Source of the DNA: Streptomyces graminofaciens
GTDB taxonomy: Bacteria; Actinomycetota; Actinomycetes; Streptomycetales; Streptomycetaceae
Reading direction: 5' to 3'
Assembly: GCF_030294945.1 (NCBI RefSeq)
Contig: NZ_AP018448.1
Span: 2,480,001 to 2,544,000, forward strand
DNA length: 64,000 bases
Each line of letters starts with the position of its first letter. The first letter of the stretch is position 1. The notes beneath the pieces are model-generated. The model saw only the letters and a list, made by a program, of their open reading frames with translations. It did not search any database and was not told the DNA's origin. Shown here piece after piece: positions 7,044 through 27,110 of the stretch. Both the position numbers and the translations under genes were made by a program.

Positions 7044-7835
7044 TCAACGTCCTGAAAACTCGGGTCGCCTCTTCTGCATGAAGGCACGTTGCCCCTCGCG
7101 CACGTCATCCGATTCGGCGCACGCGGCGACGAGCGCCTCGGCATCTTCCCGCCTCGTCGCGTCGACGGCGGACTTGATCGCGGCCTTCGCGGCACGGACC
7201 GTCAGCGGCGCGTTGGCCGCGATGGCCGCGGCCAACGCTCGGGTCGCCTCCTCGAGTTCCCCTGCGGGCAGGACACGATTGACGAGGCCGGCATGGAGCG
7301 CTTCCGCTGCCGCGAGAGGACGACCGGTGAAGAGGATCTCGGCCGCGTAGCCCGGCCCGACGGCGTGCACCAAAGCGTGGGTGAGCGTGACGGGATAGCC
7401 GATGCCGAGGCGAGCGGCCGGGATGGCGAACCGGCTGTCGTCCGCGGCAATACGTATGTCCGCGCCGAGAGCGACTGCCACGCCCGCCCCCAGACAGTGG
7501 CCGTGGATCATGGCGATCAGCGGTGTGGAGAGCGTCGCGAGCCCTCCGAAGAGGCTCGCCTCCGTCTTCTCGGCCAGCGACCGGGTCACCGCGCTGGTCT
7601 GCTGGGCCTCGAACTCGGAGATGTCCGCGCCGGCCGCGAAGGCCACGCGGCCCTCCCCGCGCAGGACGATCACCCGAACCGTGGGATCGTCGTCCAGGCG
7701 CCGCAAAATCTCGTCCAACTGGCCCATCATGCTGATCGACAGGGCATTGCGGCGTCCCGGGTTGCTGATCGTGACCCAGCCGACGGAGTCCTCTGCCTTC
7801 CCATGGACGGTGCCCGGGGGCGGCATCGCGCTCAC
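7044..7835 (-). CDS. Crotonase-fold protein (enoyl-CoA hydratase/isomerase family) lacking both hydratase glutamates
   Basis: 263 aa. The oxyanion-hole segments FAAGADISEF and HGHCLGAGVAVALG are present and the C-terminal helices are of normal length. In classical enoyl-CoA hydratase the two catalytic glutamates sit in GGGCELA and QPEI. Here the corresponding segments read GAGVAVA and IPAARLGIGYP, so both glutamates appear replaced. An isomerase, hydrolase, decarboxylase or retro-Claisen role is therefore as likely as hydration. GTG at 7835 is the preferred start (GGAG 8 bp upstream), overlapping the FAA hydrolase stop by 4 bp. An ATG at 7826 is possible. Confidence 0.85.
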   Translation of the reverse strand: MSAMPPPGTVHGKAEDSVGWVTISNPGRRNALSISMMGQLDEILRRLDDDPTVRVIVLRGEGRVAFAAGADISEFEAQQTSAVTRSLAEKTEASLFGGLATLSTPLIAMIHGHCLGAGVAVALGADIRIAADDSRFAIPAARLGIGYPVTLTHALVHAVGPGYAAEILFTGRPLAAAEALHAGLVNRVLPAGELEEATRALAAAIAANAPLTVRAAKAAIKSAVDATRREDAEALVAACAESDDVREGQRAFMQKRRPEFSGR

Positions 7836-8716
7836 GGCCGCTTCTCCGCGTGGTAGCGGTTGCACAGCGCCCCGATGCCTTCGATGTGGACTTGGAACTC
7901 GTCGCCGTCGGTCAGATATCGGGGTGGCTGCCGGACGGCTCCGACTCCGGCCGGGGTTCCGGTCAGGATCAGATCGCCGGGCTCCAGCGTGAGGAAGGTC
8001 GTGAGGTAGGTGATCAGCTCGGTGACGCCGTAGACCATGCTGCTGGTGCGGTCGTCCTGCACGGTCTCTCCGTTGAGCAGTCCGGTGACACGAAGGTCGG
8101 GGTGGACGCCGCCGAGCCGCTCGGCGGGGACGACGACCGGCCCGAGCGGGGTGAGACCGTCCCACGCCTTGCCGGCGGTGCGGCCGGGGGTGTGCAGCTG
8201 GTAGTCGCGTACGGACCCGTCGTTGGCGATGGTGTAGCCGAACACCACGTCGGCCACGTCCTCGGCGGCGACCCGGCGGCACCGTCGGCCGATCACGACC
8301 GCGAGTTCGCTCTCGTAGTCGACCTTGTCCGATTCCGGTGGCAGTGCGAGATCCGCGTAGGGGCCTGCCAGGGCGTTGTCCCACTTGGGAAACAGGTCCG
8401 GGTAGGAGGGGGCGGAGGTGCGGCCCGTCTCCCTGCTGTGTGCGGGGTAGTTCTGGCCGACACAGATGATCTTGCGCGGCCGTCCGACGGGGCTGAGCAG
8501 GGCGTCCTCGTTCAGTGCGACCGGTTTGCCCGGCTGGATACGGCCGGACTGCCCCTCGGCGGCCTCCAGCAGCGCGGGCAGGTCGGTGAACGCGAGCCCG
8601 TCGACCGTGGCGATGTGCGCTGCCGTGGCTCCCGGCCGGAACAGCACCGCGGCCGGGCCGTCCGCCAGTTCCGCTCGTCCCAGGCCGGCTTCGGCGGCCC
8701 AGCTCTGCTCCGTCAT
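7832..8716 (-). CDS. Fumarylacetoacetate hydrolase-family protein
   Basis: 294 aa. The FAH C-terminal fold is shown by DYESELAVVIGRR with the metal-binding carboxylates, GYTIANDGSVRDYQ, and the glycine-rich GDLILTGTPAGVG. Family members hydrolyse, decarboxylate or hydrate oxo-acids made by ring cleavage, such as 2-hydroxyhepta-2,4-diene-dioates or acylpyruvates. ATG at 8716 after TGAGGAG. It lies 10 bp downstream of the CoA-transferase and overlaps the crotonase gene. In this setting it probably acts on the product of ring opening. Confidence 0.9.
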   Translation of the reverse strand: MTEQSWAAEAGLGRAELADGPAAVLFRPGATAAHIATVDGLAFTDLPALLEAAEGQSGRIQPGKPVALNEDALLSPVGRPRKIICVGQNYPAHSRETGRTSAPSYPDLFPKWDNALAGPYADLALPPESDKVDYESELAVVIGRRCRRVAAEDVADVVFGYTIANDGSVRDYQLHTPGRTAGKAWDGLTPLGPVVVPAERLGGVHPDLRVTGLLNGETVQDDRTSSMVYGVTELITYLTTFLTLEPGDLILTGTPAGVGAVRQPPRYLTDGDEFQVHIEGIGALCNRYHAEKRP

Positions 8717-8726
8717 GGCAGTCTCC

Positions 8727-9953
8727 TCATTTCGTACCGGCGTCTTCGTAGGCATCGGTGCCGGCGATGACCCCGGCGTCCACCAGTTGCTGGATGTCCT
8801 CGGCGCTGTAGCCGAGTTCGGCGAGGAGCGCGGGAGCGGACTCGCCCAGCCTCGGCGCCCCGCCTCGGGCGCGGGGCGCACCGTCGGCAACGACGGGTGT
8901 GTTCACGATGACCGGCTCGCCGTGGCGTTGCGGGTCCTTGGGGAAGATGCCGCGCACGCGAAACTGCGGATCGGCCACGACGGCGTCGATGGTGTTGACC
9001 GGCCCGCAGGGCACTCCGGCGTCCCGGAGCGCGGCCATCCAATGATCGCGCGGGGCAGTGATGAAGCGCTCTTGCAGAATGTCGGCCAGTTCTTTGCGAT
9101 GGCGGAACCGTTCGTACTCGGTCGCGAACCGCTCGTCACCGGACAGATCGATGCCCAGCACCGAGCACAGCCGCGGCCAGGAGCGGTCCACCGCGCCGAT
9201 GACGAGGGTCTGCCCGTCACCGCAGCCGAAGGCCTGGTACGGCGCTGCCAGGCGGTGCGCGGTGCCGAGCGGGCCGGGCACCTCTCCGGTGGCGACGTGG
9301 TCGGCGACCTCCCAGAGCGACCAGGCGGCCACCGTGTCGGCCAGCGCGATGTCCACGTATGAGCCTCCGCCCCCTGCCCGGGCACGTAGCAGGGCGGCGA
9401 GCACACCGATCGCGGCCCACATTCCGCTGCCGAGGTCGGACAGGGGGAAGCCGGCCTTGGCGAGACGGCCGTCGTCGGTGCCGGTAACACTCATCAGGCC
9501 GCCATAGGCCTGCGCGATCAGGTCGATGCCCTTGGCGTCCCGCATCGGCCCGAACTGACCGAACCCGGAGATGGAGCAGTAGACCAGGTCCGGACACTCG
9601 GCCCGCAGATCCTCGTAGCCCAGGCCCATCCGGGACATCGCGCCGACGCTGAAGTTCTCCACGAGGATGTCGCTGCGGCGGGCCAGGTCGATGACGATCT
9701 GTCGGCCGCCGGGGGACTTCAGGTCGACACCCAGGCTGCCCTTGTCACGATGAATGAGATCGAACGGCAGGGAGCGGCGGTCGGGACCCATCTTTCGCCG
9801 GCGCATACCGTCTCCGTCGACCGGCTCGATCTTGATCACCTCGGCGCCCAGATCGGAAAGGATCATGGTGCAGTACGGCCCCGCGAGGGCGCCCGTCACA
9901 TCGAGCACCCTGACGCCATCCAGAAACGGCGCCACTCTCGTCGTCCAGCCCAT
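8727..9953 (-). CDS. Family III CoA-transferase (CaiB/BaiF type)
   Basis: 408 aa. N-terminal GVRVLDVTGALAGPYCTMIL and LGAEVIKIEPV, and the catalytic Asp in KGIDLIAQAYGGLMSVTG, are diagnostic of formyl-CoA/succinyl-CoA type transferases and alpha-methylacyl-CoA racemases. It would move CoA between a donor thioester and a carboxylate from the pathway. First gene of the operon. Its promoter (TTGACG-N18-TAGCTT) and a GGTCC...GGACC palindrome lie just upstream and recur in front of the hydroxylase operon at 15120, linking it to the same regulon. Confidence 0.9.
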   Translation of the reverse strand: MGWTTRVAPFLDGVRVLDVTGALAGPYCTMILSDLGAEVIKIEPVDGDGMRRRKMGPDRRSLPFDLIHRDKGSLGVDLKSPGGRQIVIDLARRSDILVENFSVGAMSRMGLGYEDLRAECPDLVYCSISGFGQFGPMRDAKGIDLIAQAYGGLMSVTGTDDGRLAKAGFPLSDLGSGMWAAIGVLAALLRARAGGGGSYVDIALADTVAAWSLWEVADHVATGEVPGPLGTAHRLAAPYQAFGCGDGQTLVIGAVDRSWPRLCSVLGIDLSGDERFATEYERFRHRKELADILQERFITAPRDHWMAALRDAGVPCGPVNTIDAVVADPQFRVRGIFPKDPQRHGEPVIVNTPVVADGAPRARGGAPRLGESAPALLAELGYSAEDIQQLVDAGVIAGTDAYEDAGTK

Positions 9954-9973: not shown

Positions 9974-9990
9974 GGTCCGCATCGTGGACC
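9974..9990. promoter_or_regulatory. Candidate IclR operator GGTCCGCATCGTGGACC
   Basis: A 17-bp sequence with GGTCC/GGACC arms, located just downstream of the -10 element of the minus-strand promoter of the CoA-transferase operon. It differs at one base from the element at 17418-17434 before the IclR gene, and related copies lie at 15150-15186. The position over the early transcribed region fits repression. Binding by the IclR protein of 17489-18232 is inferred. Confidence 0.6.
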
Positions 9991-10016
9991 ACTGGACCGA
10001 ATAACGGCCTGATGGC

Positions 10017-10046
10017 AAGCTAGGTGATATTTCACCGGGGCGTCAA
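10017..10046 (-). promoter_or_regulatory. Promoter of the CoA-transferase operon
   Basis: On the minus strand TTGACG (10041-10046) is separated by 18 bp from TAGCTT (10017-10022). The same hexamers with the same spacing, and further flanking identity, occur before the FAD hydroxylase gene at 15193-15222. The spacer carries GGTGA-N4-TCACC, a small inverted repeat of unknown role. Confidence 0.6.
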
Positions 10047-10101
10047 GCAACGTCCCGCATACCTGTGAGCCGCCGGACTGGCAGGACGGAAGAGGTCTGA
10101 C

Positions 10102-10530
10102 ATGACAGCACCGGTCTCGTACGAAGCGGAAGCAGCATGTCGCCGCCTGGTGGTGGCTTTCGCCCATCACCTCGATCACCGGGAGTTCGACCGCGTGGCG
10201 GCTCTGTTCACCGACGACGGCGTCTGGGACAGGCACGGTGAGCGGTTGGAGGGCCCCGAGCAGATCCTCGCCCTGCTCGAGCAACGACCGCTCACCCAAC
10301 TCGAGCGACATGTGATGACCACCATCCACGTCACCCAGCTGTCGCCGGACGAATGCGCCTCGACCAGCTACGCGATGATCTTCCGCGCCGAGACGGCACC
10401 GGGTCGGCCGGCCGCAGTCCAAGGCCCGGTCGCCGTAGGCGATTTCCACGACCGGTTCCGGCTCACCGACAGCGGTTGGAAGCTCTCCTTCCGGACGTCG
10501 GAGCCAGTGTTCGTCATCCGACCCACATGA
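10102..10530 (+). CDS. NTF2/SnoaL-like small protein
   Basis: 142 aa. The start carries a helix with CRRLVVAFAHHLDHREFDRVAALFTDDGVWDRHGERL, the usual opening of a SnoaL-like cone fold, and the C-terminus has GDFHDRFRLTDSGWKLSFR. Members act as small isomerases, cyclases or accessory subunits of oxygenases. First gene of a plus-strand group with an SDR dehydrogenase, divergent from the CoA-transferase operon across a 148-bp region containing the shared operator. The substrate cannot be told. Confidence 0.75.
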   Translation: MTAPVSYEAEAACRRLVVAFAHHLDHREFDRVAALFTDDGVWDRHGERLEGPEQILALLEQRPLTQLERHVMTTIHVTQLSPDECASTSYAMIFRAETAPGRPAAVQGPVAVGDFHDRFRLTDSGWKLSFRTSEPVFVIRPT

Positions 10531-10613
10531 CACGGCGGAAGCCGGCCCCCACCCACTCCACCGAACAAACCTGACGTCGCGATCGGTCCTCCGCATCGCA
10601 GAGAAGGACGCCC

Positions 10614-11450
10614 ATGTCCACGCAACACCCCTTCGCCGGGCGCACACTCCTGATGTCCGGCGGCAGTCGCGGGATCGGCCTCGCGATCGCTGTCCGTGCC
10701 GCACGTGACGGCGCGAATGTCGCCTTCATCGCCAAGACCGACGCCCCCGACCCCCGGTTGCCGGGTACAATCCACACGGCGGCCGCGGAGATCGAAGCCG
10801 CCGGCGGCAACGCTCTCCCGATCGTCGGCGACATCCGCGACGACGACACCGTCTTCGACGCCGTGGCGAGAACTGCCGCCCGCTTCGGCGGGATAGACAT
10901 AGTCGTCAACAACGCCTCGGCGATCGCCCTCACCGGTGTCGGAGAGCTGCCCCTCAAGCGCTACGACCTGATACAGGACATCAACGCACGCGGCACCTTC
11001 GCCCTCACATCAGCCGCCCTGCCCTACCTCCTCAAGTCGTCGGCACCGCGAGTTCTCACCCTCTCGCCGCCGCTCAACCTCGACCGCCGCTGGCTGGCCC
11101 GGCATGCGCCGTACACCGTCAGCAAGTACGCGATGACCATGCTGACGCTCGGTGTGGCCGAACAGTATCGGGAGCAGGGCATCGCGGCCGGCTGTCTGTG
11201 GCCGCGGACCCTGGTGGCGACCGCCGCCGTGCGGAACGTCGTCGGCGGCGAGGACGGAATGCGGGCGTCCCGACGACCGGAGATCATGGCCGACGCGGCC
11301 GCGGCGATTCTCGCTCTCCCCGCATCCGAGAGCAATGGACAGTGCTACGTCGACGAGGAGGTGCTGCGTTCGGCCGGCGTCTTTGACCTGTCGTGCTACC
11401 TGCACGACGGTGCCACCGAGGAGAGCCTCGAAACAGACTTCTTCCTGTGA
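10614..11450 (+). CDS. Short-chain dehydrogenase/reductase (SDR)
   Basis: 278 aa. The cofactor motif SGGSRGIG near residues 15-22, NNAS after the fourth strand, and the active-site YTVSK give a classical SDR. The extended C-terminus and the IAKTD block after the first helix resemble HSDL2-type hydroxysteroid dehydrogenase-like proteins. Follows the NTF2-like gene by 83 bp. It probably oxidises or reduces an alcohol or ketone intermediate of the neighbouring CoA pathway. Confidence 0.88.
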   Translation: MSTQHPFAGRTLLMSGGSRGIGLAIAVRAARDGANVAFIAKTDAPDPRLPGTIHTAAAEIEAAGGNALPIVGDIRDDDTVFDAVARTAARFGGIDIVVNNASAIALTGVGELPLKRYDLIQDINARGTFALTSAALPYLLKSSAPRVLTLSPPLNLDRRWLARHAPYTVSKYAMTMLTLGVAEQYREQGIAAGCLWPRTLVATAAVRNVVGGEDGMRASRRPEIMADAAAAILALPASESNGQCYVDEEVLRSAGVFDLSCYLHDGATEESLETDFFL

Positions 11451-11518
11451 GCGAGCCCTTACAAGGCTCCAGCTCCAGTTCGATCTCATCGCTTCAGTAC
11501 CGGAAAGGGCTGTGAACC

Positions 11519-11791
11519 GTGACCACGCCAAGTACACCAGCGTCCAGCACCAGACCACCGTCCGCCATGCGCGTCTCGCTGACCTCCGGCCTCCTCGGCG
11601 GACTGATCGGGGCGGTGTTGAGCGCCCTCGTCAACTACGCGTTCGTCGGCGTGCCGGAGGGCGCGGCGGCCAACGCCGTGAATCACGCCGTGAGCGGCCT
11701 CATCAGCGGTTTCGCAGCCGGGTTCATCGGACTCCTGGTGCATCAGCGCAAAGCGTCCGCCGCGGCGGAGGCCAACTCGGCCGACCGGTAG
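11519..11791 (+). CDS. Small glycine-rich membrane protein
   Basis: 90 aa from a GTG start preceded by GGAAAGGG. Two hydrophobic, glycine-rich segments (about residues 22-45 and 58-76) separated by a short polar loop with GVPEGAAANAVNHA predict two membrane helices. The ends are Ser/Thr/Ala-rich. No family recognised. It follows the SDR gene by 68 bp and ends just before a strong convergent hairpin, so it belongs to the plus-strand group. Confidence 0.6.
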   Translation: MTTPSTPASSTRPPSAMRVSLTSGLLGGLIGAVLSALVNYAFVGVPEGAAANAVNHAVSGLISGFAAGFIGLLVHQRKASAAAEANSADR

Positions 11792-11820
11792 GGCGATCAC
11801 CGCCACCGGAGGTCAGGGAA

Positions 11821-11864
11821 CCGACGTCATGCGGGTCAGCCGCGCAGGACCCGCATGACGTCGG
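11821..11864. terminator. Bidirectional terminator hairpin overlapping a stop codon
   Basis: Perfect 17-bp arms: CCGACGTCATGCGGGTC (11821-11837) and its complement at 11848-11864, with a 10-base loop. It sits between convergent genes and includes the last codons and stop of the luciferase-like gene on the minus strand, so that protein's C-terminal codons double as the hairpin arm. Confidence 0.7.
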
Positions 11865-12717
11865 TGATGACGGCGATCTGCTCGTCCGGGGTGCCGCCGA
11901 CGATGCGGTTGCCGAGCCCGAGGTAGGTGGCGCCGGATTCGGCCCATTCCTCCATGACGGTACGCCACTGTTGCCCGGGAACAGCCTGGGTGAGCAGGCG
12001 GGCCTCGAGTCCGACGGCGGCCGCGGGCCGGCCTGCGTCGCGCACGTGGGTCCGAAGACGGGCAACCACCTCGCGGGCCTTGGCGGGGTCGAGGCCGAGC
12101 GGGGCGAACATCTTGTAACCGTCGGCGAATCGCGCGATGCGGCGCAGGGCTCTGTCGGTGGGGACTCCGCCACTGGCCATGCTGCCCGCGCCCATCCAGA
12201 CGGGGATGCGGCGTGTGGGCCGGGGGTGGATGCCCGCACCGTCGAGGTCGTGGAACTCGCCGGAGTAGTTCACACTGGGCTCACTCCACAGCAGACGCAT
12301 GACCTCGATCTGCTCCTCCAGGCGGGCGCCGCGGCGGCGGGGGTCCTGGCCGAGGAGAGCGACCTCACGGTCGTTCCAGCCGAGCGACACAGCCAGACGC
12401 AGCCGTCCACCCGACATCAGGTCGACCTCGGCGGCCTGTTTGGCGGCGAGGACCGTGGGCCGCAGGGGCAACAACAGCATCGAGGTGGTGATCTCGATGC
12501 GACTCGTGACGCCCGCCAGATAGGCGGCGAGGGTCATGGTCTCGTGCCACGGGTCGTCAAAGGCGAAGCCCGGCGGAAAGGGACTGTCGGTCGTGGCCGC
12601 CACGTGCTCGGAGAAGCTGAGGGTGTCGTAGCCCAGCTCCTCCGCGGCCTGGGCGAAGTCACGGATCGCCGACGGATCCTCGAAGTACGGCAGGTCACAC
12701 CCGAGCCGGATGGTCAT
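11836..12717 (-). CDS. Luciferase-like (LLM) oxidoreductase, F420 or flavin dependent
   Basis: 293 aa TIM-barrel protein. LGCDLPYFEDP at the start, EELGYDTLSFSEHV, DLMSGGRLRLAVSLGWN and a C-terminal GATYLGLG mark the LLM family; the general form resembles F420-dependent enzymes of actinobacteria. The ATG at 12717 overlaps the flavin reductase stop (ATGA), so the two are translationally coupled. Last gene of the operon begun by the FAD hydroxylase at 15120. With a flavin reductase directly upstream, an FMNH2-dependent monooxygenase role is also possible. Confidence 0.85.
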   Translation of the reverse strand: MTIRLGCDLPYFEDPSAIRDFAQAAEELGYDTLSFSEHVAATTDSPFPPGFAFDDPWHETMTLAAYLAGVTSRIEITTSMLLLPLRPTVLAAKQAAEVDLMSGGRLRLAVSLGWNDREVALLGQDPRRRGARLEEQIEVMRLLWSEPSVNYSGEFHDLDGAGIHPRPTRRIPVWMGAGSMASGGVPTDRALRRIARFADGYKMFAPLGLDPAKAREVVARLRTHVRDAGRPAAAVGLEARLLTQAVPGQQWRTVMEEWAESGATYLGLGNRIVGGTPDEQIAVITDVMRVLRG

Positions 12718-13298
12718 GCCGACCGCTCTTCCAGCACGGCATGGGTGCCGAACTCACGCCGGTGATAGGTGAGCGGCGCTCCGTCCCGGCTCGAGGCCGC
12801 GACCACCCTCCCCATCACCACGAGATGGTCACCGCCATCGACGAACCGTGTCACCTCACAGGCGAGCCAGCCGGTGACGCCCTGCAGACGAGGCAGTCCG
12901 GTGTCGACCTGCCAGGGCACGCCCGCGAATTTGTCGGCTCCCTTGCCGGCGAACCTTATCGCCAGCTCTCCCTGATCGGCGCCCAGCACGTTCAGGCCGA
13001 ATCGTCTCTTCTGCTGCAGCAGCGACAGCAGCGTGGAGTTGCGGTCCAGGGCGACCAGGACCATCGGCGGTTCCAGGGACAGTGCCGAGAAGGCGCTGAC
13101 CGTGGTGCCGTGAGGTCGGCCTTGACTGAAGGTGGTCACTACGGAAACCGGCGTGCACACCGAACCCATGACTCGGCGGAAGAGTTCGCCGGGAACGTAT
13201 CCAGGGGCCGGTGGCGACGCCGGAGGTGGAAAATCGCTGGCATTCACAGGCACCGCCTTTGTCGAGAGGGCCGGACGCCGATGCAGGTGTGCCGTCAT
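12714..13298 (-). CDS. Flavin reductase (HpaC-like)
   Basis: 194 aa. FRRVMGSVCTPVSVVTT, GTTVSAFSALSLEPPMVLVAL and RFGLNVLGADQ are the FMN-binding blocks of the flavin-reductase-like domain. It would supply FMNH2 or FADH2 to a two-component monooxygenase; both luciferase-like proteins (11836-12717 and 15393-16502) are candidates. The ATG at 13298 has AGGAG only 3 bp away, so a GTG at 13247 with AAAGG upstream may be the real start, shortening the poorly conserved N-terminus by 17 residues. Confidence 0.88.
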   Translation of the reverse strand: MTAHLHRRPALSTKAVPVNASDFPPPASPPAPGYVPGELFRRVMGSVCTPVSVVTTFSQGRPHGTTVSAFSALSLEPPMVLVALDRNSTLLSLLQQKRRFGLNVLGADQGELAIRFAGKGADKFAGVPWQVDTGLPRLQGVTGWLACEVTRFVDGGDHLVVMGRVVAASSRDGAPLTYHRREFGTHAVLEERSA

Positions 13299-13353
13299 CG
13301 GCTCCTGATATTTCAGCTATGAAGATCGCGATTCAGTACGTGATCACGTGGCA

Positions 13354-15120
13354 TCAAGGACTCGGCTTGCCCAAAACGGAGGCGATGACGCCGCGCAGTG
13401 TGGCCGCCGGATCGTCCACAAGGCCCCGCGAGCGCCATGCCACGTGGCGGTCAGGGCGGACCAGAAGGCAGCCGTCGTCGTCGAACTCCCGGATCCTGGT
13501 CCACTCCCCCAGGACATCGTCGTACTCGGCACGCAAGCCGATCGTCCGGGCGTCGACCGCGATGCCGGTCTCGCGCGAGATCGCCGCCACCGCCTCGGTC
13601 CACGCCTGACCACCGACCCCGGTGAGCACGGTGAACCGGCCGTGCCCGACGAGGTCGAGGGTCGAGACATGCCCGGTGCCATGCTGGAGCCAGACGTGGG
13701 GCAGGTGGGCCCCTGGGTGCGTGGTCGGGTGGTAGAAGAGCTCGGGATCCCTTGTGTACTCGGGGAATGGCGTTCCGTCGTCGACCACGGCGCTGGAGGT
13801 GTAACGCTGCCCCAACTCCACTCCGTGGCAGTTGAGTTGCCAATCGACCAAGGGGAGCGCATTCAGCACAGCGGCTCGGCGGGTCTCACCAGCCTTGCCG
13901 GGGGCGAAAAGCTCGTCGACAGCGGCCCATCCTTGCTCGGCGGTCTGCCCGGGAGCCACCCCAAGGGCTTCGGCGAGCGGTTGGAGATCCTGGATGCTCT
14001 TGATCGCCCGGTCGATCACCTGACGTCCTACCGGCTTGCGTTCGTCGTGGTAGGAGTCGAGCAACGAAGGACCGGCATGTCCGCGCAGCACATGGGCGAG
14101 CTTCCAGGCGAGGTTGTATGAGTCCTGGATCGAGGTGTTGCTCCCGAGCCCGTTCGCCGGCGGATGCCGGTGCGCCGCGTCACCGGCCAGGAAGACCCGG
14201 CCCTTGCGGTACCGCTCGGCCACCAACTGGTTGATGTCCCACTGCCCGATGTGCTTGATCGTGAAGTCGACGTCGGGATCCCCGATCCCGGCCCGGACGA
14301 GCTCGGCGACGGCCTGGTCCGAAGTGTCGGCGGGCAGCATGTCATGCATCAGGAACAGGGCGTTCCACTCTGTGTGCGGCACCACCGCGGTCCAGGGGCT
14401 CACCGCCACATTGGTCCCGGGGGGCGAGACCCAGAACAGCGCGCCGGGTCGATGCTCGACGAACCTGGACAGGTCCGCTTCGATCCAGACCGTGAAGGCG
14501 GACCCGATGGCGGTCGCGCCCTCCATGGAGAACCCGAGGCTGCGGGCGACCGTGCTGTTCCCGCCGTCGGCACCGATCGCGTAGCGCGCCTCGATGTCGT
14601 ACTCCACTCCGTCGTCGCGGCGCCGGACTCTGGCCCGCACACGCTCGTCGTCCTGCGTCATGTCGACGAGTTCGGTGTTGAACCGTATGTCGGCCTCGCG
14701 CTCCCGCGCCGCGGCCAGAATTGCCGGCTCCAGCACGGTCTGCGGCGCGTTGCACATCTCGCACGGACTCGCCGCCTCATAGTCGGCACGCCGGTCCTGC
14801 CCCTGCCCCCAGGACATCATGCGCGCCAGTTCGACCCCGGCGAACGAGGTCGCCCACACATTGGTACCCATCAACTCGGCGGGCATCGCGATCTCACGCA
14901 GGCGGTCCTCGATGCCCAGGTCGCGCAGCACTTCCACGGTCCGCTGATTGGTGATGTGAGCGCGCGGGGTGTGCGCCGTCGACCCGTACTTGGTCAGCGT
15001 GATCGCACTGACGCCGTACTCGGCCAGGAAAGCGGCCGCGGTCAAGCCGGCCGGCCCCGCGCCGACCACGAGTACGTCGGTGTGCACCACACCGCCTGCA
15101 GCGCCGCTGTCATGTGTCAT
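13354..15120 (-). CDS. FAD-dependent aromatic hydroxylase (phenol hydroxylase / TfdB-like)
   Basis: 588 aa group A flavoprotein monooxygenase. FAD-binding GAGPAGLTAA at about 21-30, the GADGGNS motif, and GRVFLAGDAAHRHPP followed by NGLGSNTSIQDSYNLAWKLA are present; the NGLGSNTSIQD block is typical of 2,4-dichlorophenol 6-monooxygenase relatives. A C-terminal thioredoxin-like domain follows (about 440-588). It would ortho-hydroxylate a phenolic or hydroxy-heterocyclic ring with NAD(P)H and O2. ATG at 15120 after GAGGAG. First gene of the operon, with a promoter and two operator copies upstream. Confidence 0.9.
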   Translation of the reverse strand: MTHDSGAAGGVVHTDVLVVGAGPAGLTAAAFLAEYGVSAITLTKYGSTAHTPRAHITNQRTVEVLRDLGIEDRLREIAMPAELMGTNVWATSFAGVELARMMSWGQGQDRRADYEAASPCEMCNAPQTVLEPAILAAAREREADIRFNTELVDMTQDDERVRARVRRRDDGVEYDIEARYAIGADGGNSTVARSLGFSMEGATAIGSAFTVWIEADLSRFVEHRPGALFWVSPPGTNVAVSPWTAVVPHTEWNALFLMHDMLPADTSDQAVAELVRAGIGDPDVDFTIKHIGQWDINQLVAERYRKGRVFLAGDAAHRHPPANGLGSNTSIQDSYNLAWKLAHVLRGHAGPSLLDSYHDERKPVGRQVIDRAIKSIQDLQPLAEALGVAPGQTAEQGWAAVDELFAPGKAGETRRAAVLNALPLVDWQLNCHGVELGQRYTSSAVVDDGTPFPEYTRDPELFYHPTTHPGAHLPHVWLQHGTGHVSTLDLVGHGRFTVLTGVGGQAWTEAVAAISRETGIAVDARTIGLRAEYDDVLGEWTRIREFDDDGCLLVRPDRHVAWRSRGLVDDPAATLRGVIASVLGKPSP

Positions 15121-15149
15121 AGCCGCTCCTCATCCAGTACTGCCACGGT

Positions 15150-15186
15150 GATCCGCATTTCGGACCATCGGACCGCCATACGGACC
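15150..15186. promoter_or_regulatory. Two degenerate IclR-type operator copies
   Basis: GATCCGCATTTCGGACC at 15150-15166 (13 of 17 bases as in the 9974 copy) and, on the minus strand, GGTCCGTATGGCGGTCC at 15170-15186 (14 of 17 as in the 17418 copy). They lie between the -10 element at 15193-15198 and the hydroxylase start, in the same relative place as the copy before the CoA-transferase. Confidence 0.55.
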
Positions 15187-15192
15187 ACTGGC

Positions 15193-15222
15193 AAGCTAAG
15201 TCAGCGCTCAGCGGAGCGTCAA
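15193..15222 (-). promoter_or_regulatory. Promoter of the FAD hydroxylase operon
   Basis: Minus strand TTGACG (15217-15222), 18-bp spacer, TAGCTT (15193-15198), identical in hexamers and spacing to the promoter at 10017-10046. Confidence 0.6.
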
Positions 15223-15263
15223 GCCGCTCGACAGCCTGGAGTCGTTGAAATTTGCCGCACCGG

Positions 15264-15297
15264 TTGACGCATGTAATGCCTCATACGATAGTTCGTA
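15264..15297 (+). promoter_or_regulatory. Promoter with inverted repeat before the LLM monooxygenase
   Basis: TTGACG (15264-15269), 17-bp spacer, GATAGT (15287-15292). The -10 region is overlapped by the inverted repeat TACGA-TAGT-TCGTA (15284-15297), a candidate operator different from the GGTCC element. Confidence 0.45.
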
Positions 15298-15392
15298 ACA
15301 TCTCACAGCGGCCAGTCTCATAGCTCAGGCCGCCGTCACACGGGTGCCGCACCGGCCCCGACCCCGATGTCTTCCATGAAGGGGTTCCGCAC

Positions 15393-16502
15393 ATGAAGGT
15401 CGAACTCTTCACACCGGTCGCGTACTACGGCGATCTCGACGCGTACGAGACGTGGCCCTTGCGACCGCGGTGGTACAAGAGCGAGCACGGCATGCAATCC
15501 ATGCAGTTCGGTTTCGAGCAGATGGAAGCGGCCTACGAGGGCGGGTTCGACTCGCTCAACCTCGCCGAGCACCACTACACGTCCCAGTTGACCCCGGTCC
15601 CCCACCTGTTCGCCGCGGCACTGGGTGAGCGGTTGCCCGATGCCCAGATCGCGGTCAACGGCACCGACCTCCCGCTGCACAATCCGATCATGGTCGCCGA
15701 GCAGTACGCCATGCTCGACAACCTGCTCGGCGGCCGACTGCGGTTCGCCTTGTTGCGCGGAACTCCCAACGAGTACATGACCTACGGCACCAACCCCTGG
15801 GAGGCTCGGGAGAAGTTCGAGGAAGGAGTCGAATTGGTCATCCGAGCCCTGACCGAGCCCGAGCCGTTCGGCTGGGAGGGCAAGTACTTCCGTTCCCGCA
15901 ACATCGCGCTGTTCCCACAGCCGGTGCAGAAACCCCACCCGAGGATCCTCCTGTCGGCCAACAGCGTCGCCTCCGCGCGCTTCGCCGGCAGGATGCGCTG
16001 CGACGCTGGCATCAGCTTCATGGCGCCGGAGAAGTGCGGGGAAGTCGTGGCCGCCTACCGTGAAGCAGCCGCCGAGGCCGGCTGGGCACCGACCGCAGAC
16101 AACATCCTCTACCGGCAGTTCGCCTACATCGCCGAGACCGACGAGCAGGCTCGCGAGGACACCGCCGACAAGTGGCCGCAGGGCAAAGGACTGTTCGCCA
16201 CCGACAACCTCGACCAGCTGATCGCGATGGCCACGGCGGGCGCGGCCCTGGCCGGCGCTCCCAAGGGGGCACCTCTGGATCCCTCGATGGCGCCCAAGTT
16301 CGGCGAGCCCTTCCTCGGCAGCCCCGAGACCGTACTGGCGCAGATCCGTGAGGCGGAGCGGCACATCGGAATGGGCCGCGTCGAGTTCGCCATCGTGCCG
16401 CCGAGCAACTGCCTCAGCCACGAACAGGTGATCCGCTGCATCAAACTCATCGGCCGGGAACTCATCCCGGCCCTTCACGCCGACGCGCCTGCCGCCGCCT
16501 GA
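15393..16502 (+). CDS. Luciferase-like flavin-dependent monooxygenase
   Basis: 369 aa. Bacterial-luciferase-family TIM barrel with NLAEHHYT at about residue 54, QIAVNGTDLPLHNPIMVAEQ, YAMLDNLLGGRLRFALLRGT and LGSPETVLAQIRE. Such proteins use FMNH2 from a separate reductase to cleave or oxidise C-C, C-N or C-S bonds; some open N-heterocyclic rings. The flavin reductase at 12714-13298 is the obvious partner. Followed 18 bp later by an alpha/beta hydrolase in the same transcript. Confidence 0.88.
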   Translation: MKVELFTPVAYYGDLDAYETWPLRPRWYKSEHGMQSMQFGFEQMEAAYEGGFDSLNLAEHHYTSQLTPVPHLFAAALGERLPDAQIAVNGTDLPLHNPIMVAEQYAMLDNLLGGRLRFALLRGTPNEYMTYGTNPWEAREKFEEGVELVIRALTEPEPFGWEGKYFRSRNIALFPQPVQKPHPRILLSANSVASARFAGRMRCDAGISFMAPEKCGEVVAAYREAAAEAGWAPTADNILYRQFAYIAETDEQAREDTADKWPQGKGLFATDNLDQLIAMATAGAALAGAPKGAPLDPSMAPKFGEPFLGSPETVLAQIREAERHIGMGRVEFAIVPPSNCLSHEQVIRCIKLIGRELIPALHADAPAAA

Positions 16503-16520
16503 CCGACAGAGGAGCCCACG

Positions 16521-17339
16521 ATGACAACCACACCCACCGTGCCCGGCGCCGCCTTCACTGAGCACGCGGTCGAGGCCGACGGATTCACCATCCGGTACTT
16601 CGAGACAGGCGAAGGCGATGCCCTGGTCGTGCTCCACGGCGCCGGCGGCCCGGTGTTCTCCCCGGCGCTGGACATCCTCGCCGACCGCTACCGGGTGATC
16701 CTCTTCGAGATGCCCGGCTTCGGCGAGCAGCCCAACGACCGCCACCAGTCGCTCGCCGAGATGGCCGCCACGATCGACGCGGCGACACGGGCACTCGGCC
16801 TGGAGTTCTACCACCTGCTCGGCACCTCCTTCGGCGGTGCCGTGGCCACGCACCTCGCGCTGAACCACTCGGAGCGGCTGGCCTCCCTCGTACTCGAAGC
16901 CCCGGCGACCTTCCGTGTCGGCAGCACCCCACCCGGGCCGCATCTGGCACCGGACGAGATGCGCCGCATGTTCCGCAGGCACCCCGAGCGGGTCCCGGCG
17001 TGGCAACCGCCGGACCCCTCGGCGGCGGCCCGGGTGTGGCCGCTGGTCGGACGACTGCTGGCGGAGACTCCGGAGTACGACGAGCAACTCGTGGCACGCC
17101 TGTCCACGTGCCAGGTCCGCACGCTCGTCGTGTTCGGGGACTACGACGGCGTGACCCCATCCGACAACGGGCGCGTCTTCCGGCGCCACATGCCGAACAG
17201 CCACTTTGTGCTCGTCCATGACGCGGCGCACGACATCCAGGCGGACCGGCCCGAAGCCTTCGCCGACGTCGTCGGCGACTTCCTCACCCGCGGATGGTCG
17301 TTCGCCCTCCCCGAGGAGTCCACTCTCATCAACCCCTGA
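16521..17339 (+). CDS. Alpha/beta hydrolase (MhpC / C-C bond hydrolase-like)
   Basis: 272 aa. Oxyanion segment LHGAGGP, nucleophile elbow GTSFGG, acid in VFGDYDGVTP and base in DAAHDIQADRP complete the Ser-Asp-His triad. The size and layout match meta-cleavage product hydrolases and related enol-lactone or amide hydrolases. Cotranscribed with the LLM monooxygenase, so it probably hydrolyses the oxygenated or opened-ring product. A very strong terminator follows. Confidence 0.88.
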   Translation: MTTTPTVPGAAFTEHAVEADGFTIRYFETGEGDALVVLHGAGGPVFSPALDILADRYRVILFEMPGFGEQPNDRHQSLAEMAATIDAATRALGLEFYHLLGTSFGGAVATHLALNHSERLASLVLEAPATFRVGSTPPGPHLAPDEMRRMFRRHPERVPAWQPPDPSAAARVWPLVGRLLAETPEYDEQLVARLSTCQVRTLVVFGDYDGVTPSDNGRVFRRHMPNSHFVLVHDAAHDIQADRPEAFADVVGDFLTRGWSFALPEESTLINP

Positions 17340-17360
17340 GAGCGAAGAGGACGCAGAGCG

Positions 17361-17401
17361 CCTGCCCCCTTGCCCGACCGCCGGTCGGGCAAGGGGGCAG
17401 G
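17361..17401 (+). terminator. Strong hairpin terminator after the alpha/beta hydrolase
   Basis: Perfect 19-bp arms, CCTGCCCCCTTGCCCGACC (17361-17379) and its complement (17383-17401), with a 3-base loop. No U-tract, as is common in high-GC actinomycetes. Confidence 0.8.
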
Positions 17402-17417
17402 CTGCGTCGGCGCACTC

Positions 17418-17434
17418 GGTCCGCATGGTGGACC
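17418..17434. promoter_or_regulatory. Candidate IclR autoregulatory operator GGTCCGCATGGTGGACC
   Basis: The best palindromic copy of the element (GGTCC-N7-GGACC), 55 bp before the IclR start codon and nearly identical to 9974-9990. Its presence before the regulator itself suggests autoregulation and identifies the probable binding protein. Confidence 0.6.
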
Positions 17435-17488
17435 AGCATTGTTACTCTGGGGACTGGTGCAGGCCTGCCGAACCGTGCGAGGAGAGCA

Positions 17489-18232
17489 ATGCGAAGCGTC
17501 CTGACCGCTCTGCGGGTGCTGGAAGCCGTTTCCCAGCTGCAACCGGTGGGACTCAGCGAACTGAGTCGGCAGCTCGGCCTGCCCAAGACGACGGTCCAGC
17601 GGGGTCTTGTCGCCCTCGCCGAAGCCGGCTGGCTTGAGAGCGACCAGGCGGACAGCGCGCGCTGGATTGTCGCCACCAAGGCGTTCGTCGTCGGCAGTAC
17701 GGTCGCCAATCGAGGCAGCCTGCGCGACCGAGCCCTGCCCCATATGAACGCGCTCGCGGCTGAGGTTCAGGAAACCATCCACCTGATGATCCCTGACGGT
17801 CACCAGGCCGTGCTCATGGAACGCCTCGACAGCCCGCACCCCGTGCGCGCCTTCGCCCCTCTGGGCGCGCGCGCCCCCCTGCATGCCAGCTCCAACGGAA
17901 AGGCGATCCTCGCCCATCTGCCGGACGAGGAGGCAGCCCGCTACGTGGAGCACGGCTTGGCGGCCGTCACGGAGCGAACCATCACCGAGCCCGCCAAGCT
18001 CTACGAGGAACTGGCCCTCATCAGGAAGCGCGGCTACGCGGTTGCCAACGAGGAACTGCAGGACGGCGTGGTCTCCGTAGCCGCGCCCATCCTCGCCGCC
18101 GATGAACGCCCCGTCGGCTCCCTGTCCATCTCAGCGCCGAAGGCACGGATGCCCAGGACGCTCTGGTCCGACTACGGAAAAAAGGTCCACCAGGCAGCCA
18201 ACACCATCGCCGACGCTCCTTCGCCCCGATGA
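17489..18232 (+). CDS. IclR-family transcriptional regulator
   Basis: 247 aa. N-terminal winged helix (about 1-60; GLSELSRQLGLPKTTVQRGL) and a C-terminal GAF-like effector domain with APLHASSNGKAILAHLP and GYAVANEELQDGVVSVAAPI. IclR proteins sense aromatic or small-acid ligands. The ATG at 17489 follows GAGGAG. The palindromes at 9974, 15150-15186 and 17418 make it the likely regulator of both minus-strand operons of this block. Convergent with the DUF3500 gene. Confidence 0.9.
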   Translation: MRSVLTALRVLEAVSQLQPVGLSELSRQLGLPKTTVQRGLVALAEAGWLESDQADSARWIVATKAFVVGSTVANRGSLRDRALPHMNALAAEVQETIHLMIPDGHQAVLMERLDSPHPVRAFAPLGARAPLHASSNGKAILAHLPDEEAARYVEHGLAAVTERTITEPAKLYEELALIRKRGYAVANEELQDGVVSVAAPILAADERPVGSLSISAPKARMPRTLWSDYGKKVHQAANTIADAPSPR

Positions 18233-19774: not shown

Positions 19775-20509
19775 CTATTGCGGGGTCGTCTTCCGCAGCG
19801 GTACGACCTCTGTCGCGACCACGGACGGCCAGCGTGCCAGCGTACGCAGGACCCGGTTGTGGGACTGCTCGATGTAGTACCGCGCGAACTCCGCGAACTT
19901 GTCACCGTCACGCAGGAGGAAGTTGTCCTTCCACCTGCCCAGAGGGACAAGCGGTTCCCCGTAGTCCAGCAGTTCGGAGTCGATGACCAGGATCCACACC
20001 CGTGTCAACTCTCCAGACAAACGGGCGCAGGTACTGATCATGTAGTCGTTGCGGGTGGCCTCGGCCAGGATGGTGAACATCTGGTCGATGATCTCGACAG
20101 TGCGTTGTGTGGCCTCTCGCGTGCGCCCCTGCTCCTTCGTCAGACTCGCAATTTCCGCGCCACAGGCGATGATGCGGTCGAGCTGCTCCTCAGTGGCGCC
20201 GACGACACCGCGACGGGCCACCTCCGGCCCGAGGACTGCCCAGAAGTCGAAGAGATCGTCGACCGCCTTGATGGTGAGGGGCTTGACCTGGTAGCCCTTC
20301 CTCGGAAGCGTGCGCACCAGCCCCTCGTGATCCAGGCGAGTAAGTGCGTCACGGATGGGCGACACCCCGAAACCCGTATCGGTCGCGAGCCGGCGTTCGG
20401 TGAGCCGCTCCCCCGGGGCCAGCCGACACCTGACGATGTCAGCCCGAATCCGGAGGTAGGCGGCTTCGCCGAGGGACCCCGTATCCAGCTCACGGTCACT
20501 CAAGGTCAT
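19775..20509 (-). CDS. GntR-family regulator (FCD/FadR subfamily)
   Basis: 244 aa. Winged helix with GSLGEAAYLRIRADIVRCRL, APGERLTERRLA, FGVSPIRDALTRLDHEGLV and PRKGYQV, then an all-helical FCD ligand domain. The ATG at 20509 is chosen because family similarity starts there and GAGG lies 4 bp upstream; an ATG at 20533 is an alternative. It precedes the DUF3500 pair on the same strand, with a separate promoter in between, and probably controls it. Confidence 0.88.
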   Translation of the reverse strand: MTLSDRELDTGSLGEAAYLRIRADIVRCRLAPGERLTERRLATDTGFGVSPIRDALTRLDHEGLVRTLPRKGYQVKPLTIKAVDDLFDFWAVLGPEVARRGVVGATEEQLDRIIACGAEIASLTKEQGRTREATQRTVEIIDQMFTILAEATRNDYMISTCARLSGELTRVWILVIDSELLDYGEPLVPLGRWKDNFLLRDGDKFAEFARYYIEQSHNRVLRTLARWPSVVATEVVPLRKTTPQ

Positions 20510-20520
20510 CGGTCCTCGTC

Positions 20521-20548
20521 TGTAGGTGGACATCTTCGTTAACCTACA
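20521..20548. promoter_or_regulatory. Inverted repeat before the GntR gene
   Basis: TGTAGGT (20521-20527) and ACCTACA (20542-20548) form a perfect 7-bp inverted repeat with a 14-bp gap, 11 bp upstream of the GntR start. A candidate autoregulatory site. Confidence 0.4.
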
Positions 20549-20706
20549 GGCTACATTGCACGGGACTGCCAGTGATGTGTCACTGCGGGGTAGTACCGCA
20601 CTACGAGGACAAGACGGTTTTGGGTGGAGCCGCACCGAGGGGCCGGCTCCGCCGGTGACGAGGGCATCCATCCCTTGGTCAGTAGCCGGTGTCGCAGTTG
20701 TGAGGG

Positions 20707-21030
20707 TTACTGCAGAGGTGAACTGACCGTCGGGCTCAAGCATGTGACCTCGACTCCAGTGATCTTCGACGGGTCGAATCCTTCGAGGTCGGCAAGGAAC
20801 TGGCCGGCGCCCGACTCACGGAGGCCGGCTCAGACGGGCGCCGCCAGCTCCGGACTCCGACCAAAGCGCTCGGCCAGTTCGGTGGGGTCAGCGCCCTCAT
20901 CCATCGACGCCAGCACGAACAGCCGTGGTTCCTTGTCGTCGGGGCTGGTCCAGAAGCCATGTGCGCGGATACCGGCCTTCGGGAAGAAGCCGTTCAGGTA
21001 CCGGGGATAGATCACATCCCGGCTGCACAT
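20707..21030 (-). pseudogene. Broken NIPSNAP-like gene with in-frame TGA
   Basis: One minus-strand frame reads from the ATG at 21030 through YPRYLNGFFPKAGIRAHGFW and RLFVLASMDEGADP to SPELAAPV. It then meets TGA at 20830-20832 and continues in the same frame with FLADLEGFDPSKITGVEVTC to TAA at 20707. The two halves together resemble a small NIPSNAP-type or antibiotic-monooxygenase-like protein. The family call is tentative. The nonsense codon and the adjoining transposase relic indicate a dead gene. Confidence 0.55.
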
Positions 21031-21059
21031 GGGCGCAGGTCCCGTCAGCGTTCGGTCCG

Positions 21060-21220
21060 CCCTGGGCCACCGCTTATCGCCGTTTCATGGGATGGTCCAC
21101 GGCCCGGGTGCGGGCAAAGCTGCACTGGCCTGGTCCTGGACGAATTCGGTTTCCGCGGTGAGCTGGACTGGTCGAGGTGCGCGATCGACCCGGCCGGCTT
21201 GCGGGCTCTCAAGATGGAGG
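21060..21220 (+). mobile_element. IS5-family transposase relic
   Basis: AYRRFMGWSTARVRAKLH in one plus-strand frame is continued, after a frameshift near 21125, by LVLDEFGFRGELDWSRCAID and then LRALK. This matches the end of the DNA-binding part and the first Asp of the DDE region (DWSRxAID) of IS5-type transposases. The rest of the gene is absent. Confidence 0.65.
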
Positions 21221-21256
21221 GATGGGGTGTGTCGCGCGGGGGCGGTCTGCAGTGGA

Positions 21257-22426
21257 TCAGCTGAGCCGTCGGGTGGGCTCGCGCGTGACGGCCCGGCCGA
21301 TGATCTCCTTCATGATCTCTGTGGTTCCCGCGTAAAGCGTGCTGGCACGGGCATCGAGGAACTCGCGCGCGATGGCGTACTCACGCATGAAGCCGTATCC
21401 GCCGTGCAGTTGCAGGCACTGCGAGAGCACGCGCTGCTGCAGTTCGGTTGTCCACCACTTGGCCATTGCCGCCTCGATGTCCGAGAGCCCGTCATGGACG
21501 TACTCGTCGATGCACCGATCGACGAAGACGCGGGCGACCTGCACCTCGGTGGCAAGCTCGGCAAGAGTGAAGCGAGTCGCCTGGAACGACGTCAGCGGCT
21601 GCCCGAAGGCATGGCGCTCAGTGGTGTGGGACAGCGCATGGCCGAACGCGCGTTCCATGCTCGCCACCGCGGTCACCGCCACGCTGAGCCGCTCGCGCAC
21701 CAGGTTCTGGCGCAGACAGCTGAGCGCTTCACCCTCCTTCCCGAGGAGATTCCCGCGCGGCACGCGGACGTTGTCGAAGAACAGTTCGGCCGTGTCCTGG
21801 GCAGCCAGGCCGATCTTGTCGAGTTTGCGGCCGCGGCTGAATCCGGGCATGTCGCGTTCCACCACGAACAGGCTGAGGTGCCCGCTGCGCGGTGCCGGAT
21901 CGGTCTTGGCCACGACGACAACCAGGTCGGCGAGGATGCCGTTGCTGATGAAGGTCTTGGTGCCGTTCAGGAGGTAGTCGTCGCCGTCGGGAACCGCGGT
22001 CGTGGCGATCCCTTTGAGGTCGCTGCCGGTGCCGGGCTCGGTCATGGCGAGGGCGGCCACGCGCTCGCCGGCGCACAACTGCGGGAGCCAGCGGGCCTTC
22101 TGTTGGTCGGTACACAACTCGTCCAGGTAGGGAGCAACGAGGTCGTTGAAGCCCGAGAGGCCCATGACTACCGAGGTCGCCCCCACACGGGTGAGTTCCT
22201 CGTTGATCACCACGCTGTAGCGGAAGTCCGGCTCGCCGCCCCCACCGTGGCGCTCGTCGACGCCCATGCCCAGCAGCCCCAGGGCGCCCGCCTTGGCGTA
22301 CAGCGCGCGGTCGACGACACCGGCGGCGTTCCACTCGTCGAGGTGAGGGGCCACCTCGCGTTCGGCGAAGTCCCGCGCCACGGACCTCAGTTGCTCGTGC
22401 ATCACGTCGAAGACATGTCGTTTCAT
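21257..22426 (-). CDS. Acyl-CoA dehydrogenase (long-chain/isovaleryl type)
   Basis: 389 aa flavoenzyme that introduces an alpha-beta double bond into an acyl-CoA. LAMTEPGTGSDL, TFISNG, and the C-terminal QLHGGYGFMREYAIAREFLD and YAGTTEIMKEIIGR are the signature blocks. Since the C-terminal YAGTTE lacks the YEG glutamate of medium-chain enzymes, the catalytic base is probably the Glu in VRERLSVAV, as in long-chain and isovaleryl-CoA dehydrogenases. The ATG at 22426 follows GGAGG. Single gene with its own promoter, convergent to nothing intact and next to the second PaaX-like regulator. Confidence 0.92.
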   Translation of the reverse strand: MKRHVFDVMHEQLRSVARDFAEREVAPHLDEWNAAGVVDRALYAKAGALGLLGMGVDERHGGGGEPDFRYSVVINEELTRVGATSVVMGLSGFNDLVAPYLDELCTDQQKARWLPQLCAGERVAALAMTEPGTGSDLKGIATTAVPDGDDYLLNGTKTFISNGILADLVVVVAKTDPAPRSGHLSLFVVERDMPGFSRGRKLDKIGLAAQDTAELFFDNVRVPRGNLLGKEGEALSCLRQNLVRERLSVAVTAVASMERAFGHALSHTTERHAFGQPLTSFQATRFTLAELATEVQVARVFVDRCIDEYVHDGLSDIEAAMAKWWTTELQQRVLSQCLQLHGGYGFMREYAIAREFLDARASTLYAGTTEIMKEIIGRAVTREPTRRLS

Positions 22427-22516
22427 CCGTCCTCCAGAACGGTTCGGAGGGGAGTGGGAAGCGAAGGTGCCGCAACGGGCCGCTCTCCGGAGCGGCGGCA
22501 GGCACGTCACGCCTTG

Positions 22517-22558
22517 ACGTTAGGCATACTTTCGACGACCGTCAATGAATCATCGAAA
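22517..22558 (-). promoter_or_regulatory. Promoter and operator of the acyl-CoA dehydrogenase
   Basis: Minus strand TTGACG (22540-22545), 17-bp spacer, TAACGT (22517-22522). An imperfect inverted repeat, TTTCGACGA (22530-22538) and TCATCGAAA (22550-22558), straddles the -35 element and is a candidate repressor site. Confidence 0.5.
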
Positions 22559-22611
22559 TTTGAAAACGGTCGGACGACCCGAAGGCGCCGTGACTCGCCG
22601 AACACATCGCG

Positions 22612-23487: not shown

Positions 23488-23534
23488 TTCGGCAGATCCT
23501 AGACGGTCGACACGGATACATCCAAAGACGCCGA

Positions 23535-24182
23535 TCAATGCCCTTGCGACGCGCCCAGCAGATAGGCGATGACCGCCGCCTGGAGCTGCTTCCTCAGCTC
23601 GGTCCATGGCAGGGGCCGATCCGACTCGAGGAACTCACCCTGGGTGACCCGGTGCGCCACAGCGGCGTAGACCAGGCGGTACGCGAAGTCGAGGGCGGCG
23701 GCCCGGTCGGAGTGAGCGATGGGTATGTGATCGAGAGCCTCGACGAAGCGGTGGTTGCCCTCGACGCTGACTCGCGAACCCAACGTCTTCACCGCATCAT
23801 GGCGGGTGCCGAGGAGAAGGAAGACACCCAGCAGGTGTTCGTGCGTCCGGAAGGCGTCGACGATCGCCCCCACCGCTTCGGCGACCTCGTCGGCAGGGTC
23901 CGGGAGGCTTCGCAGCCGCTCTGCGGACACCCGCTCTGCGATCTCGGCCCGGATCATGTCGGTGAAGGCGCGCTGAATGGCGTACAACAGCCCTTCCTTG
24001 TCACCGAAGTGCCGATAGATGCTGCCGACCGCCACGCCCGCGCGCTCGGCGACGGCAGCGACCGTGAGCGCGTCCACCCCGCCTCCTTCGAGCACCGTGA
24101 GCCCGGCACGAAGGATGTCCTGTTGCGAACGGCGACCGCCTTCCTGCAGAGCGGCCGGTCTACGCACGGTGGAGTCAGTCAC
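23535..24182 (-). CDS. TetR-family transcriptional regulator
   Basis: 215 aa from a GTG at 24182. HTH: SQQDILRAGLTVLEGGG, TVAAVAERAGVAVGSIYRHF, GDKEGLLYAI. The C-terminal part (FAYRLVYAAVAHRVTQGEFL, AYLLGASQGH) closely resembles the TetR gene at 48477-49118, and the N-terminus resembles the cut gene at 1-119. Divergent from the hydroxyquinol operon at 24434, with two GTGAA-N6-TTCAY boxes in between; the likely repressor of that operon. Confidence 0.9.
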   Translation of the reverse strand: MTDSTVRRPAALQEGGRRSQQDILRAGLTVLEGGGVDALTVAAVAERAGVAVGSIYRHFGDKEGLLYAIQRAFTDMIRAEIAERVSAERLRSLPDPADEVAEAVGAIVDAFRTHEHLLGVFLLLGTRHDAVKTLGSRVSVEGNHRFVEALDHIPIAHSDRAAALDFAYRLVYAAVAHRVTQGEFLESDRPLPWTELRKQLQAAVIAYLLGASQGH

Positions 24183-24206
24183 TCGCGCATCTTATCCGTC
24201 GGACTC

Positions 24207-27108: not shown

Positions 27109-27110
27109 CA

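Follow-up and report, generated by a model that had tools for sequence, protein, structure and literature searches.

The question raised by this locus of Streptomyces graminofaciens is whether one IclR-family regulator controls two catabolic operons that lie on the minus strand of the same stretch. The window, that is the whole stretch of DNA analysed, has a length of 64,000 nucleotides. An earlier note on this DNA had proposed that a shared palindrome and an identical promoter tie two distant operons, one with a CoA-transferase gene and one with a hydroxylase gene, to an autoregulated IclR gene. On the sequence comparisons given below, we consider it highly probable that the caiB operon and the monooxygenase operon form one IclR regulon through a shared operator and promoter. 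The genes concerned, named from Pfam and NCBIfam and assigned to predicted operons by their spacing, are as follows.

8727-9953, minus strand: CaiB-type (family III) CoA-transferase, first gene of operon 1 (Pfam CoA_transf_3, 370.5 bits).
7832-8716, minus strand: FAA-hydrolase family protein, operon 1 (Pfam FAA_hydrolase, 218 bits on a longer ORF).
7044-7835, minus strand: enoyl-CoA hydratase, operon 1 (Pfam ECH_1, residues 198-445 of a 446-aa ORF).
13354-15120, minus strand: FAD-dependent aromatic-ring-hydroxylase-type monooxygenase, operon 2 (Pfam FAD_binding_3, 363.8 bits, and Rng_hyd_C).
12714-13298, minus strand: flavin reductase, operon 2 (Pfam Flavin_Reduct).
11836-12717, minus strand: LLM (luciferase-like, TIGR03619 F420 type) oxidoreductase, operon 2 (Pfam; NCBIfam TIGR03619 above cut-off).
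15393-17339, plus strand: divergent LLM oxidoreductase and alpha/beta hydrolase genes (Pfam).
17489-18232, plus strand: IclR-family regulator of 247 aa (Pfam HTH_IclR 43.3 bits, cut-off 22; IclR_C 148.8 bits, cut-off 24).

The protein encoded at 17489-18232 has the N-terminal HTH_IclR domain, the C-terminal IclR_C domain and the length of about 250 aa that define the IclR family. Both operons sit in one continuous catabolic cluster, and describing them as distant was an overstatement. The gene set looks suited to degrading an aromatic or otherwise cyclic compound by way of CoA esters; a literature search on the combination of enzymes in the cluster gave no match. By reading frame, the FAA-hydrolase gene starts at the ATG at 8716 or at 8755, its ORF being open to 8890, and the enoyl-CoA hydratase gene starts at the GTG at 7835 or the ATG at 7826. 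The 446-aa ORF (7044-8384) overlaps the FAA-hydrolase gene in another frame and only its last ~250 residues correspond to the enoyl-CoA hydratase, so automatic annotation could call a false fusion here. An acyl-CoA ligase gene (6925-5297), separated by 118 bases from the end of the enoyl-CoA hydratase gene, may also belong to operon 1. A perfect 12-bp palindrome, ACGTGATCACGT (13338-13349), lies in the 55 bp that separate the monooxygenase gene from the flavin reductase gene. A second catabolic-looking module is the neighbour of the cluster at 21029-27980, with a PaaX-like regulator (22612-23607) and an MhpA-type FAD monooxygenase (24305-25990).

The palindromes and promoters all lie at the positions that had been claimed for them, and the elements relevant to control of these genes are the following.

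9974-9990: palindrome GGTCCGCATCGTGGACC.
9974-10010, minus strand: composite operator before caiB, AGGCC-N7-GGTCC-N3-GGTCC-N7-GGACC, with its palindromes centred at 10002 and 9982.
15150-15186, minus strand: composite operator before the monooxygenase gene, GGTCC-N7-GGTCC-N3-GGTCC-N7-GGATC, with its palindromes centred at 15178 and 15158.
17418-17434, plus strand: single palindrome GGTCCGCATGGTGGACC before iclR, at the expected -35 of the predicted TGtTACTCT promoter.
10017-10046, minus strand: predicted promoter of the caiB operon, TTGACG-N18-TAGCTT.
15193-15222, minus strand: predicted promoter of the monooxygenase operon, TTGACG-N18-TAGCTT.
15264-15292: predicted promoter of the divergent LLM gene, TTGACG-N17-GATAGT.
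17440-17448, plus strand: extended -10 of iclR, TGTTACTCT, predicted from sequence only.

Where the earlier note had linked the regulator to the two operons through one palindrome, the link stands in the form of a shared and conserved operator and promoter, but at both operons the operator consists of two palindromes in tandem instead of one. At the monooxygenase operon, 15150-15166 has two mismatches to the pattern of that note and 15170-15186 matches it exactly; at the caiB operon, a weaker second palindrome at 9994-10010 (AGGCC-N7-GGTCC) was absent from it. Both operon operators thus consist of two tandem 17-bp palindromes with centres 20 bp apart and four boxes in fixed register, and can be written on the minus strand as the 37-bp composite GGTCC-N7-GGWCC-N3-GGTCC-N7-GGACC. 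The second box is GGTCC, not GGACC, in six composites (those of the promoters in the window, S. spongiae and a genome of the same genus, G261), which are not independent of one another. Boxes 1-3 therefore read as direct repeats, with AGGCC or AGACC as box 1 at the caiB sites. The two palindromes are about two turns apart, a spacing that would fit the dimer-of-dimers binding described for the IclR family.

The placement of these operators bears on what the regulator would do there. Both start 6 bp downstream of the -10 hexamer, between it and the start codon as had been proposed, and lie over the predicted transcription start; they are best read as repressor sites for this reason. A different possibility is that IclR acts as an activator at these sites, or as a repressor of the two operons and an activator of the divergent LLM and hydrolase genes. 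The IclR family does include activators and dual regulators (PMC8222616), and the operator at 15150-15186 also precedes, by 77 bp, the predicted -35 of the divergent genes, which are possible further targets of IclR. However, an operator downstream of the -10 and over the predicted start at both minus-strand operons suits blocking better than recruitment, and the distance from -10 to operator is kept in G261. We regard activation as improbable and repression as the preferred reading. A perfect inverted repeat, TACGA-N4-TCGTA (15284-15297), covers the predicted -10 of the divergent LLM gene and is unchanged in S. spongiae; it may be due to chance, with 39 of 100 shuffles of the window holding at least one match at up to one mismatch.

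In order to see how specific the sites are, we compared their counts with controls. The form GGTCCGNATNGYGGWCC has three exact matches in the genome of 11,602,651 bp, all of them inside this 7.5-kb stretch; the whole-genome motif search, which the earlier note had named as a test, does not refute its proposal. The symmetric form GGTCCGCANNNTGGACC matches twice in the genome, at caiB and iclR (reversed control, one match), and the composite at up to two mismatches matches only the two operon operators (reversed control, none). Looser searches lose this specificity: the pattern of the earlier note at up to two mismatches is at background in the genome (204 + 192 against 189 + 197 for the reversed control), as is the composite at three mismatches with GGTCC fixed in box 2 (5 + 5 against 4 + 8). 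Within the window, 33 matches to the pattern at up to three mismatches compare with 16.2 expected, and none of 100 shuffles reaches 33. The background-level counts of the single pattern at two to three mismatches and of the composite at three could be taken to mean that the repeats arise by chance or are a general genome repeat. We give this explanation hardly any weight, as the exact and near-exact forms are confined to these promoters in the genome and recur beside iclR orthologues.

The conservation in relatives that the earlier note asked for is also seen: the operator is kept beside IclR orthologues in S. spongiae, in G261 and in a genome of another family, G539. With at most seven candidates scored per genome, an iclR orthologue (E <= 1e-60) is rare, being found in 2 of 392 genus genomes and in 2 of 394 class genomes, the genome of the window being counted in both. 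Among genome contigs there are two related loci, that of S. spongiae at 98% and a relative at 32%. The S. spongiae cluster is about 95-98% alike to that of the window, and a comparison of the operon operators of the two shows 1 of 40 box bases differing versus 11 of 34 spacer bases (Fisher p 0.0008). At up to two mismatches the S. spongiae genome has two composites, both from this cluster; counts at three mismatches equal the control (12 + 12 and 12 + 11). In G261 there are three IclR homologues, of which two (60-61% identity) are divergent to a caiB relative (73-74%), with composites of 0 and 1 mismatches between each of these iclR genes and its caiB; the third, 47% identical, has no composite upstream. 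Two of the three distinct composites of that genome (up to two mismatches) are within 6 kb of an iclR orthologue. In G539 the IclR orthologue has 63-64% identity, and no difference is apparent, in the part aligned, between it and an IclR under the name Angustibacter luteus. A composite lies there between iclR and an ABC-transporter gene, and all three distinct composites of the genome (up to two mismatches) are within 6 kb of iclR. In the G261 locus L025, three GGTCC-N7-GGACC palindromes occur in 453 bp (16777-17229), ~2.2 kb beyond the third IclR homologue, and may be further operators.

We then scored the composite in the 400 bp upstream of 18 IclR homologues against 60 shuffles each. Each of the three homologues at 60-64% identity is preceded by a composite with 0-1 mismatches, and five at 44-45% (four of one genus and one of another family) have one with 3-4 mismatches; none of the 60 shuffles scores as well in any of these eight cases. 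For the other ten (eight that are 41-52% identical, plus those of the window and S. spongiae) the best composite has at least six mismatches and is no better than shuffles. One 41% homologue, in G778 (L029), is preceded by GGTTC-N7-GAACC-N3-GGTTC, a like layout with another box sequence; scored for GGTCC boxes, it is equalled by 9 of 60 shuffles. The plasmid collection holds five relatives, all below 60% identity, and a DNA search of the cluster in it gave one chance-like match of 120 bases.

The promoter is conserved together with the operator. The arrangement TTGACG-N17/18-TA[GAC]CTT-N6/7-operator is common to both promoters of the window, both of S. spongiae and both caiB promoters of G261. 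The transporter promoter of G539 is TTGACA-N17-TACCTT-N6 followed by the operator; the other two of the three G539 sites are without the conserved hexamers. We searched the 392 genus genomes for this module (TTGAC, 36 bp, composite; up to three mismatches) and obtained matches in eight, compared to one match of the reversed control in all 392. Both orthologue genomes have two promoter sites each at 0-2 mismatches, and the six others have one match each, five at three mismatches and that of G362 at two (TTGTC at -35). At up to two mismatches the module is thus found in 2 of 2 orthologue genomes versus 1 of 390 others (p about 4e-5). In six comparison genomes, which have no iclR match at E <= 1e-60 where searched, the composite alone at up to two mismatches has no site in four and one site each in G094 and G013; such single matches mean nothing, because the reversed control also matches in 5 of the 8 genomes searched whole, with up to 3 + 2 in G684.

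The operator could have followed one of the enzymes instead of the regulator. Association with the monooxygenase was rejected, as the two genomes whose monooxygenases came nearest in the search, those of the window itself apart (58-60%, two copies each), have no composite (up to two mismatches) in 19.9 kb and no relative of the window IclR nearby; in one of them, G094, the single composite is 0.58 Mb away. Association with caiB was rejected as well, since the operator-bearing 19-kb stretch of G539 holds no relative of caiB, and there relatives only of IclR and of two monooxygenases were found among the 19 window proteins compared. The presence of the operator beside orthologues, and its absence at monooxygenases without this IclR, indicate that the operator tracks the regulator.

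The same comparisons bear on whether another regulator owns the operators, namely the GntR-type (19775-20743) or PaaX-type (22612-23607) protein or an IclR paralogue elsewhere. The genes of the first two are both within 10 kb, and two IclR paralogues (~41% identity) are neighbours at 10.97 Mb and have a recognition helix much like that of the window IclR, in an alignment that leaves out the rows of G684, G416 and G683; a different IclR protein could thus bind these sites. However, GntR and PaaX relatives were not found (E <= 1e-10) in the composite-bearing 19-kb stretch of G539, where IclR was found, and neither was found in the C9 stretch of G261. The type of palindrome and the 20-bp spacing agree with what PMC8222616 describes for the IclR family, and the IclR paralogue tested has no composite upstream. 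Ownership by another regulator seems quite improbable to us, and the IclR protein of the cluster stays the preferred candidate.

The regulator's own gene is a separate case. Its upstream palindrome, GGTCCGCATGGTGGACC, is unchanged in S. spongiae despite a 15-nt insertion directly beside it. In the 400 bp before iclR there is no composite: the best has six mismatches in both the window and S. spongiae, which is matched by 17 of 60 and 21 of 60 shuffles, respectively, and with one palindrome the 20-nt tandem spacing does not occur. The idea of autoregulation is less secure than that of the two-operon regulon: a palindrome precedes iclR, but this palindrome is single and has no recognisable second half. 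It appears reasonably likely that IclR lowers its own synthesis through this single palindrome over the predicted -35 region. Between the hydrolase gene and iclR, at ~17350-17408, there is a strong hairpin (-57.6 kcal/mol, z -7.8) without a T run, whose stem is kept in S. spongiae with a compensating length change. It is likely a terminator and separates iclR from the preceding hydrolase gene, which suggests that iclR has a promoter of its own.

The preferred reading of repression by IclR can be put as a mechanism. The IclR protein (17489-18232) would most likely bind each tandem operator as a dimer of dimers. Without inducer, it would block the operon of caiB, FAA hydrolase and enoyl-CoA hydratase as well as that of FAD monooxygenase, flavin reductase and LLM oxidoreductase. 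A catabolic intermediate would bind IclR and release it from the operators, so that both operons could be transcribed, and IclR would probably limit its own level through the single palindrome. A bolder proposal is that the four-box operator is a distinct IclR-family type, with boxes 1-3 as direct GGTCC repeats and only box 4 inverted, fused to a conserved promoter at a fixed distance from TTGACG (36 bp); an asymmetric tetramer would bind it, and it would move between actinobacteria with its regulator as one promoter-operator cassette while the catabolic genes change. We hold this only tentatively and rather doubt it. These findings make a regulon testable for an uncharacterised actinobacterial catabolic cluster, with a candidate regulator, 37-bp operators defined to the base and two operons. 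They also provide a neat example of an IclR operator that stays with its regulator from one family to another as the enzymes change. They open no new kind of regulation.

It remains to compare the system with known ones. The window IclR scores 140.7 bits with the PcaR/PcaU/PobR model (TIGR02431), below the cut-off of 284.75. The best-scoring named IclR model is that of BhcR (NCBIfam NF045644), with 192.5 bits and again below the cut-off (350). BhcR has its role in glyoxylate / beta-hydroxyaspartate metabolism. A literature search for GGTCC and the IclR family did not show GGTCC in the IclR papers among the matches listed, and it was not found in the main text of PMC8222616. That study (Suvorova and Gelfand 2021, PMC8222616) gives the group 1 motif of the family as GKTYCRYW3-4RYGRAMC, tandem sites 18-22 nt apart in 94 of 181 orthologous groups, and site positions of -20 to -80 relative to the gene start. 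Its regulators act on their own genes and on one or two neighbouring operons, for the most part in aromatic metabolism. With N3 in place of W3, the motif fits the proximal caiB palindrome and the iclR palindrome with no mismatch and the monooxygenase palindromes with one and two; the distal caiB palindrome, with 4 of 14 mismatches, would not pass alone. The spacing of 20 nt at caiB and at the monooxygenase falls within 18-22 nt, and all five window palindromes, with centres 29, 49, 38, 58 and 63 bp from the start codons, are within the described range. The likeness to group 1 thus consists of inverted half-sites, tandem spacing, position, and the putative control of self plus adjacent operons. 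In contrast, the outer base G (GGT...ACC) is outside the four subgroups named in PMC8222616, and box 2 of the Streptomyces composites is GGTCC instead of the inverse GGACC. The direct GGTCC boxes recall the operators of PcaU, PobR and HmgR, in which, as reported in PMC8222616, a palindrome adjoins an extra direct half-site repeat, although these have three boxes and the window operator has four. The TtgV-operator complex (PDB 2XRO, Lu et al. 2010) serves, according to PMC8222616, as the model for how a tetramer of the IclR family would sit on tandem sites; it belongs to an efflux-pump regulator. The sites are real and well supported by comparison, and the proposed regulon is of an ordinary kind of bacterial gene control, in an arrangement already described for many IclR-family regulators (PMC8222616).
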